A DNA stretch of 64,000 bases, from contig JAHDLB010000026.1 of assembly GCA_018432315.1 (NCBI GenBank), forward strand, positions 1 to 64,000, in the 5' to 3' direction. Below, piece by piece: positions 35,481-62,298 of the stretch. The position numbers and the translations under genes were made by a program. The DNA is from Anaerolineae bacterium (lineage in GTDB: Bacteria; Chloroflexota; Anaerolineae; Aggregatilineales; Aggregatilineaceae). How positions within the stretch are numbered: the stretch's first letter is position 1; each line of letters begins with the position of its first letter. The notes under the pieces were generated by a model that had not been told where the DNA came from, did not search any database, and saw only the letters and a list, made by a program, of their open reading frames with translations.

Positions 35481-35529
35481 ATCGCCTGGTGGCCGGGCAC
35501 AGGGGCGCGGCGACCTGCCCGGCGATCTA
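35478..35529. terminator. Inverted repeat overlapping two convergent stop codons
   Basis: TAGATCGCC (35478-35486) begins with the plus-strand stop and pairs with GGCGATCTA (35521-35529), which contains the minus-strand stop. A second pairing, GCCGGGCA with TGCCCGGC, lies inside. No T run; terminator role is inferred. Confidence 0.5.
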
Positions 35530-36360
35530 CGGCCCGTGGCGGCGAATGGCCTCGGACACGTCGGCGTTGAAGACGAAGTCGTCGACGGTGAAGACGGCCC
35601 AGGGCGTGCCCTCGTCTTCCCAGGTCACGGACATCACGCGGGGGAGCGTCAGGCCGTGGAAGCTGCCCCATTCGCTCGCCTCGCAGATCCAGCGGATTTT
35701 CTCGCCGTCCTTGTCCTTGTAGCGCATGGCCTCCATGGTGGTCAGCAGGCCGGTGTCCGGGTCGAAGTGGACGGTGAACGAGTCTTCGCCGTCCTCGAAC
35801 GGCACGACGAGGCGGGCGGTCGTGTCGTCGATCGCTTCCCAGCGGACGCGCGGATCGGTGAGGAAGATCGACGGCAGGGCCATCGACTCGCCCCACAGGC
35901 CCAGGTTGGCGGCCTGGTTGACTTTCGGCTCGTTCTCGACCGTGCCGAAGGGCAACTCCAGCCGGCTGTTGCCGTCCAGGTAAAACTCGTTGACCTTCAT
36001 CAGCGTCTGGCCGAAGAGGGTCAGCTCGATGTAGTGGCGGTAATTCTGCCCGGCCTCGTGAATGAACCGGTAGCGCGCCGGGAACGTGATCCCGCCGAAG
36101 CGCATCTTGGCCGGGCCGGTGAGCACCGCCGACTCGATCACCGGGATCGACTCCCCGGCGACGGCCCGGTAGAAGCGCGCGACCGGCGCGGGCAGGTCGT
36201 CCGGCAGCGGGACAGTCTGGTCCAGCGTGGTGTCGGCGGGATAGGTGGGCAGCGGGTCCGGCGTCACCTGGAGGCCGATCCAGCCCACGAGCGCTATGAC
36301 GAGCACCAGCGCGATCAGCACGAGGGCGAGGAGTGCGATCATTTTGCCGATCCTTTTCAT
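35527..36360 (-). CDS. DUF6544-like membrane-anchored protein
   Basis: A 277-residue protein with an N-terminal helix (residues ~7-30: IALLALVLIALVLVIALVGW). The rest is a beta-rich extracytoplasmic domain with FRFGGITFPARYRFIHEAGQNYRHYIELTLFGQTLMKVNEFYLDG-like order, WEAIDDTTARLVVPFEDGEDSFTVHFDPDTGLL, and SEWGSFHGLTLPRVMSVTWED; this agrees with the DUF6544 family. The start at 36360 has GAGGAAAG 5 nt upstream. Function is unknown. It lies downstream of the ABC permease, separated by the cloverleaf element. Confidence 0.65.
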   Translation of the reverse strand: MKRIGKMIALLALVLIALVLVIALVGWIGLQVTPDPLPTYPADTTLDQTVPLPDDLPAPVARFYRAVAGESIPVIESAVLTGPAKMRFGGITFPARYRFIHEAGQNYRHYIELTLFGQTLMKVNEFYLDGNSRLELPFGTVENEPKVNQAANLGLWGESMALPSIFLTDPRVRWEAIDDTTARLVVPFEDGEDSFTVHFDPDTGLLTTMEAMRYKDKDGEKIRWICEASEWGSFHGLTLPRVMSVTWEDEGTPWAVFTVDDFVFNADVSEAIRRHGP

Positions 36361-36405
36361 CTTGGCTTTCCTCGATTCTACAGCACGAACGTGGCGCACG
36401 AACTG

Positions 36406-36481
36406 CCTCCCCCCTGCCGGCTGAAAGCCGGAGCCCCTCGCCGGGGCGAGGGGCCGCAACCGACGGTTGCCAGGGGGGAGG
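36406..36481. repeat. Cloverleaf inverted-repeat element 1
   Basis: An 11-bp outer stem (CCTCCCCCCTG at 36406-36416 with CAGGGGGGAGG at 36471-36481) encloses three hairpins in a row: CCGGCT-gaa-AGCCGG, GCCCCTCGCC/GGCGAGGGGC (36433-36454), and GCAACC-gac-GGTTGC. Almost every base is paired. It lies 6 nt after the permease stop and has no T run. A second element with the same layout but other sequence is at 62221-62298. Confidence 0.88.
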
Positions 36482-36487
36482 CGCCGG

Positions 36488-37639
36488 TCAGATCGTCGCC
36501 CGGCCCGCCGTGCGCGAGGAGAGCATAATCACCAACGCCGCAAAGAGCAAGATCGCCCCCAACGGTCCCGCCACGTCGAGCAGCGACTCGCCCTTGATCA
36601 TCACGTCGCGCAGCGCCTGGTTGGCGTAGGTCAACGGCATCAGCTTCGACAGCGGCTGAAGCCAGCGCGGCATGTCCTCGATCTGCCAGATCACCCCGCC
36701 GAGCAGCCCTTGCGACACGACGACCAGCGGCACGAACTGGAGCACCTGGAACTCGTTCTGCGCGAACGTGCTCAGGAAGATGCCCAGGTTCACCGACACG
36801 GCGACCAGCAGCACCTCCACGACGAAGATGTTGAGCAGGTTGCCTGCGTAGTGGATGTCCAGCACGAACACCGTGAACAGCAGCGTGATCGCGCCCTGGA
36901 TGAGGCCGAACAGCAAAAAGCCGCCCATGTAGCCCAGGATGATCTCGTGCGCGCGGATGGGCGTCGCCTGGAGCCGTTCGAGCGTCCCCGCCAGGCGCTC
37001 GCGCAGAAACGAGACGCACGTCAGCAGGAAGACGAAGAAGAACACGAGGAAACCGATCAGCGCCGGGGCCATGTAGTCGAGCGTGTCGTATTCCGGCCCG
37101 CTGTGGATGTAGCGCGCGTCGATCGTCGCCGTCAGTTCGGGGAGATCGCTGGCCGTCGGGCTCGACGCCACCAGCACGAAGTTGTTGGCCGCCTGGAGCG
37201 CCACGCGCTCGAAGATCGTGCGCAGCCGGTCCGAGATCATCGGGTTGGAGCCTTCGAAGGTCACGCGCAGCGCCAGGTGCCGCGTCTGCGTGACCTGCGT
37301 CGTGAAGTCCGGCCCGACCATGATCACCGCGTCCGCGCTGCCATCCTGCAGGCGGCGATCGGCCTCGCTGGCCGTCATCACCTCGGCCTCGAATTCCTCG
37401 AAGCCGCCCAACACCTCGGCCAGCCGGTCGCCCAGGTTGACGGCGCGGCCCACCAGCGTCACGCCCTGGTCGTCGTTGACGATCCCGACGACGAGCTTCC
37501 CCGGCTCGGCCCGGATCAGAATCCCCAGGAAGCTGAGCAGAATCACCGGCACGACGACGATCAGCGCCAGCGTCCGGCGGTCGGCCATCATCTGCTGGAC
37601 CACGCGCCGGGCCAGGATCAGGGTGCGGTTAGTGCTCAT
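36488..37639 (-). CDS. ABC-2 type transporter permease
   Basis: A 383-residue membrane protein of the ABC-2 exporter class. One N-terminal helix (~25-43) is followed by a large extracytoplasmic domain (~45-210, with NDDQGVTLVGRAVNLGDRL and ARYIHSGPEYDTLDYMAP) and five C-terminal helices ending LGAILLFAALVIML. The helices contain RERLAGTLERLQATPIRAHEIILGY, the coupling-helix signature of this family. It overlaps the ATPase gene by 11 nt and forms the last gene of the TetR-ATPase-permease operon. Cargo is unknown; a drug or lipid role is common for such operons. Confidence 0.9.
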   Translation of the reverse strand: MSTNRTLILARRVVQQMMADRRTLALIVVVPVILLSFLGILIRAEPGKLVVGIVNDDQGVTLVGRAVNLGDRLAEVLGGFEEFEAEVMTASEADRRLQDGSADAVIMVGPDFTTQVTQTRHLALRVTFEGSNPMISDRLRTIFERVALQAANNFVLVASSPTASDLPELTATIDARYIHSGPEYDTLDYMAPALIGFLVFFFVFLLTCVSFLRERLAGTLERLQATPIRAHEIILGYMGGFLLFGLIQGAITLLFTVFVLDIHYAGNLLNIFVVEVLLVAVSVNLGIFLSTFAQNEFQVLQFVPLVVVSQGLLGGVIWQIEDMPRWLQPLSKLMPLTYANQALRDVMIKGESLLDVAGPLGAILLFAALVIMLSSRTAGRATI

Positions 37640-60525: not shown

Positions 60526-62205
<1,680 letters not shown>

Positions 62206-62220
62206 GCCGCGCGGGAGTCC

Positions 62221-62298
62221 GCGCCTGGCGCACGCGCGACGCGCGTCAGGGCGACCGGCGGTCGCCCTGGGCAGGGCTTGCCCTGCCGCGCCAGGCGC
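62221..62298. repeat. Cloverleaf inverted-repeat element 2
   Basis: GCGCCTGGCGC (62221-62231) pairs with GCGCCAGGCGC (62288-62298) as an 11-bp outer stem. It encloses three abutting hairpins: ACGCGC-gac-GCGCGT (62232-62246), CAGGGCGACC-ggc-GGTCGCCCTG (62247-62269) and GGCAGGGC-tt-GCCCTGCC (62270-62287). All bases except the loops are paired. It has the same layout as element 1 but no shared sequence. No T run. Confidence 0.9.

Follow-up and report, generated by a model that had tools for sequence, protein, structure and literature searches.

What is the perfectly paired cloverleaf that lies just beyond an ABC-2 type permease gene in a 64,000-nt stretch of DNA (the window) from an Anaerolineae bacterium (assembly GCA_018432315.1, contig JAHDLB010000026.1)? 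The initial annotation had described this structure, here element 1, as a cloverleaf DNA element. We identified a second cloverleaf of the same architecture in the window (element 2), which has dispersed homologues in related genomes, and the pairing in this family is kept with almost no G-U pairs. With a confidence only a little above even, we read these elements as short, non-autonomous, mobile palindromic DNA repeats, akin to miniature inverted-repeat transposable elements (MITEs) and repetitive extragenic palindromes (REPs), whose pairing is preserved in the DNA itself.

Element 1 (36405-36482) consists of a perfect outer stem enclosing three perfect hairpins. The stem had been called perfect and 11 bp long; its perfection holds, and its length is 12 bp (36405-36416 with 36471-36482). 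There are three hairpins, as reported, and they are not strictly back-to-back, since a single unpaired base (A36432 and C36455) parts each neighbouring pair. The predicted four-way junction of the single-stranded form was reproduced for either strand: with RNA parameters, 36406-36481 folds to the complete cloverleaf at -61 kcal/mol on the + strand (z -5.8) and -62.6 kcal/mol on the - strand (z -6.7), energies matched by no shuffle of either strand, and DNA parameters give -36.3 (z -6.4). The element begins 5 nt past the permease stop codon, in agreement with the location first given. Also in agreement with the annotation, ARAGORN detected no tRNA in element 1, the window contained no Rfam match, and no T run follows the stem on either strand, which sets the element apart from a simple intrinsic terminator.

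The architecture itself is rare. A letter-blind scan with a strict definition (outer stem of at least 10 bp plus three near-perfect hairpins) was applied to 2.06 Mb of the source genome (∼36% of it) and returned two occurrences, elements 1 and 2, compared with none in 41.1 Mb of dinucleotide-shuffled sequence. Therefore, the architecture of element 1 is not a product of chance. A similar filter over 1.18 Mb around the mutase genes of 80 other genomes, mainly Chloroflexota plus some archaea and others, returned a single cloverleaf, in a relative (G004; relatives are given by such handles). Element 2 follows a methylmalonyl-CoA mutase gene, has no unpaired junction base and folds at -68.7 kcal/mol.

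The annotation had held that a lack of further copies or structural relatives in this and related genomes would count against it. In the source genome, the structural relative was found (element 2), while a sequence copy of element 1 was not. Beyond it, DNA searches recovered dispersed homologues of element 2, at least 15 of them in five related genomes. A covariance model (R1) built from seven of these homologues and run over 154 genomes of the order identified 16 copies in six genomes (one in the source, nine in G011, three in G010 and one each in G013, G015 and G004), all in the source genome's own taxonomic family. Among 396 genomes drawn from the class, R1 matched only in two members of the same family, although few candidates were scored per genome and absence elsewhere in the class is therefore provisional. 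As far as searched, the element 2 family is confined to this taxonomic family, and the exact flank-plus-arm pattern was absent from the viral_contigs set. Like other dispersed short extragenic palindromic repeats, the copies lie at or beyond gene ends; by heuristic gene calls they are mostly downstream of genes, between convergent or same-direction neighbours, and one (G010_C125) is also near a gene start. Weaker covariance-model matches were rejected: those in G010 are mostly GTAG REP dimers, which have a different architecture, and those in G000, G004, G013, G015 and G017 are not cloverleaves.

Within this family the pairing is kept while the letters change. Across 16 copies and 33 pairs (524 cells), 515 cells are Watson-Crick, four are G-U and five are mismatches; 20 of the 33 pairs occur as more than one Watson-Crick type, and both sides have changed in 74 cells. 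The 16-copy alignment was fitted to the covariance model and is biased towards it, yet a seven-sequence MAFFT alignment that was not fitted to structure agrees, its covariation score being reached by none of 500 shuffles. The rate of G-U pairs (4/524) is far below that in the tRNA stems of the source genome (29/448; Fisher P = 9e-7, a value that overstates independence because the copies are related). This scarcity of G-U pairs argues for upkeep of the pairing in DNA, and together with the structural relatives it supports the original description as a DNA element. The copies share no conserved unpaired sequence, and their loops, mostly 3-4 nt, vary freely. Template switching during replication is known to make imperfect inverted repeats more perfect (PMC7202029), and a similar process may act on these elements.

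The positions of the copies suggest mobility. The nine G011 copies sit at different places in the genome. One occupies the spacer between ftsY and prfB, where 15 other genomes of the family were compared: the cloverleaf is present in G011 only, and the spacer is very short in most of the others. This copy was therefore most probably inserted after the G011 lineage had split off, and at this orthologous site the element 2 family shows the presence/absence variation expected of a MITE. Separately, the same spacer in G003 (L365) carries a different hairpin-like insert of ∼90 nt (TTATGGGTTATGGGTTTTGAG...), and prfB in the relatives that were read (L365-L379) has the classic CTTTGA programmed frameshift site.

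The G011 copies also share their ends, with a T run, often accompanied by GGGAGTCC, on one side and an A run on the other, in inverted arrangement. Across the family, the 79-nt core is found in either orientation within its flanks, and for the G011 copies the orientation can be assigned unambiguously (∼82-96 bits, versus 53-64 when reversed). Of the ten copies in which GGGAGTCC adjoins the core, five have it on the left (one mismatch in C581a) and five on the right (imperfect in two), and none has it on both sides. The 3′ end of the mutase gene, where element 2 lies, carries a cloverleaf in G013, G004, G015 and G011 as well. Relative to the mutase gene, the G015 core has the opposite orientation to the cores of G013 and G004 (77 versus 55 bits for the orientation in G015). 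The simplest reading of these sequences is that the core may invert in place, reinsertion being the alternative. Other structures follow the mutase gene in G001, G002, G005 and G007, and none was noted at this site in G006. In G001 (L221), an imperfect hairpin of ∼140 nt, made of CAGCTAA/CAGCCAA-like units, stands where relatives carry the cloverleaf; in G005 (L222) there is a GTAGGGGC hairpin related to GTAG-type REP dimers.

In the mechanism we propose, either DNA strand, when single-stranded, would fold to a complete four-way junction of 71-82 nt, in which an outer stem of 9-13 bp encloses three hairpins, and the repeats would spread via single-stranded or cruciform intermediates. Pairing could be kept by template-switch repair of the arms in replication, by the need of a mobilising enzyme for the folded form, or both. 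Inversion of the core would then be a by-product of that DNA metabolism, and a very stable structure at the 3′ end of transcripts an accessory effect. If true, these repeats would document in nature that DNA, rather than RNA, adopts secondary structure inside cells, and shape-based mobilisation or palindrome repair by template switching would become testable in a natural element.

Several observations weigh against mobile DNA repeats as the explanation. No clean target-site duplication could be delimited at the copies. A cloverleaf stands at the mutase site in five species from three genera, a pattern that also fits retention for a host function. In the ten genomes inspected, no perfect cloverleaf lies within ∼1.5 kb of a match to Y1 transposase, and the only Y1 match of the source genome is weak and inside a long protein, leaving it with no clear Y1/RAYT (REP-associated tyrosine transposase) gene. 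The remaining points concern element 1: it has no sequence relatives in its own genome or in 61 relatives, where only short chance matches were obtained, as they were from plasmids and phages; its permease orthologues are followed by single hairpins or by none, never by a cloverleaf; and its R1 score, 26.9 bits with filters off, is not significant genome-wide (about E = 1 by our scaling). By sequence, then, element 1 is not a dispersed repeat. With no sequence relative and no cloverleaf at the permease orthologues, its membership is argued from architecture and position alone.

For that reason we weighed whether element 1 could be an unrelated local palindrome that converged on the form of element 2, for example a one-off hairpin array in a G+C-rich spacer. 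We regard this as possible and on the whole doubtful. Its single copy and lack of sequence similarity to the family would fit, as would the missing GGGAGTCC flank and the unpaired junction bases 36432 and 36455, which most family copies do not have. However, elements 1 and 2 are alike in length, arm lengths, loop sizes and type of site and share one genome, and the shuffled sequence produced no such structure by chance. Element 1 has no sequence in common with any copy, and we infer that it is likely a member of the same architecture that either diverged in sequence or arose independently.

Selection could instead act on RNA, with the cloverleaf serving as a 3′-end structure that blocks exonucleases or sets a boundary to transcription downstream of a gene, as REPs do within operons. 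Elements 1 and 2 and several other copies lie 1-25 nt past stop codons, several copies separate convergent genes, and this REP-like placement would permit such an effect, as would the extreme stability of the two folds and the occupied mutase 3′ end. We nevertheless consider it unlikely, because G-U pairs, normal in RNA helices, are so scarce here, the pairing is perfect on both strands, and no T run follows the stem (in G011 the T run precedes the core and the A run follows it); the permease orthologues that do without a cloverleaf argue in the same direction. Least probable by far is regulation of the downstream gene by a structured non-coding RNA or riboswitch: a multi-branch fold does lie ∼43 nt upstream of a - strand gene start, but the window lacks an Rfam match, the loops are short and free to vary around no conserved unpaired sequence, and the copies follow many different genes.

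A more far-reaching proposal would be a new class of non-coding mobile DNA recognised purely by its four-way-junction shape, in which the letters may vary provided that the junction remains perfect, the core can invert in place, and sequence-unrelated members such as elements 1 and 2 share a genome since copying or upkeep acts on the shape only. We think this distinctly improbable at present. Most of the repeated palindromes described from bacteria consist of one hairpin or two, and G-T pairs are tolerated in REP stems. A description of such a repeat family was not found in the limited collection of literature that was searched.

Among known systems, REPs and REPINs (GTAG and CGTC superfamilies; PMC3733652, PMC3116915) are similar in being small dispersed palindromes, mostly between convergent or same-direction genes, and are presumed to move as non-autonomous elements. 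They differ in consisting of one tagged hairpin or a pair, whereas three hairpins are held within an outer stem here, and the GTAG/CGTC foot tag is absent from the feet of all 17 copies. REP stems also show frequent G-T pairing, which has been cited in support of a role in RNA (PMC3733652), whereas the cloverleaf repeat has almost none. Bacterial MITEs (reviewed in PMC10969869) are likewise short, non-coding, dispersed inverted repeats, and a lineage-specific insertion is seen here too; unlike MITEs, the whole core is paired and not only its ends. No target-site duplication was delimited, and no parent insertion sequence was identified among the Y1 matches considered. A tRNA cloverleaf shares the four-arm outline and a similar length, but ARAGORN detected no tRNA, the loops are not conserved and most copies lack an unpaired junction. 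We know of no mitochondrial hairpin element in which an outer stem encloses three hairpins. Mitochondrial double-hairpin and repetitive hairpin-forming elements are also reported to be compact, mobile and hairpin-forming (e.g. PMC2800124, PMC4478555).

Coordinates of elements 1 and 2 and of the neighbouring genes in the window
Feature	Position	Strand	Detail	Basis
Element 1, outer stem 5′ arm	36405..36416	no strand	GCCTCCCCCCTG, 12 bp	sequence reading, RNA fold, architecture scan
Element 1, hairpin 1	36417..36431	no strand	6 bp, loop 3 nt	RNA fold
Element 1, hairpin 2	36433..36454	no strand	9 bp, loop 4 nt	RNA fold
Element 1, hairpin 3	36456..36470	no strand	6 bp, loop 3 nt	RNA fold
Element 1, outer stem 3′ arm	36471..36482	no strand		RNA fold, architecture scan
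ABC-2 type transporter permease	36488..37639	-	stop codon 5 nt from element 1	
Next same-strand gene	35527..36361	-	277 aa, without Pfam family; proposed ATG 36361, ∼43 nt from element 1	
Methylmalonyl-CoA mutase gene	60526..62205	+	ends 15 nt before element 2	
Flank motif GGGAGTCC	62213..62220	+	adjoins element 2; in 10 copies borders the core, on a single side each time	
Element 2, second cloverleaf	62221..62298	no strand	outer stem 11 bp; hairpins 6, 10 and 7 bp	architecture scan, fold

A Y1/RAYT transposase is present in G011 (C221) and in some relatives. The arrangement typical of RAYTs, a Y1 transposase flanked by the repeat in the same genome, was not found, nor was a parent insertion sequence of the repeat, in a search for an autonomous partner that covered Y1 only. 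A weak Y1_Tnp match beside a degenerate cloverleaf (G010:C70) was first taken as a linked transposase; it was rejected because the open frame, 249 aa long, is only the terminal part of a protein truncated at the contig edge, and because Y1 matches in several other genomes, the source included, fall in frames of ∼1000 aa or longer. Weak matches to this HUH transposase domain at G000:C24:91571-91855 and in several relatives lie inside such long frames, where the domain may be domesticated. Finally, head-to-head GTAG-type REP dimers (TGTAG - hairpin - hairpin - CTACA), which fold as three-way junctions, were noted in G010 (L194-L204, L207), G005 (L159, L163-L165) and G009 (L157); at least 10 occur in G010 alone, a genome in which they are found beside the cloverleaf repeat.
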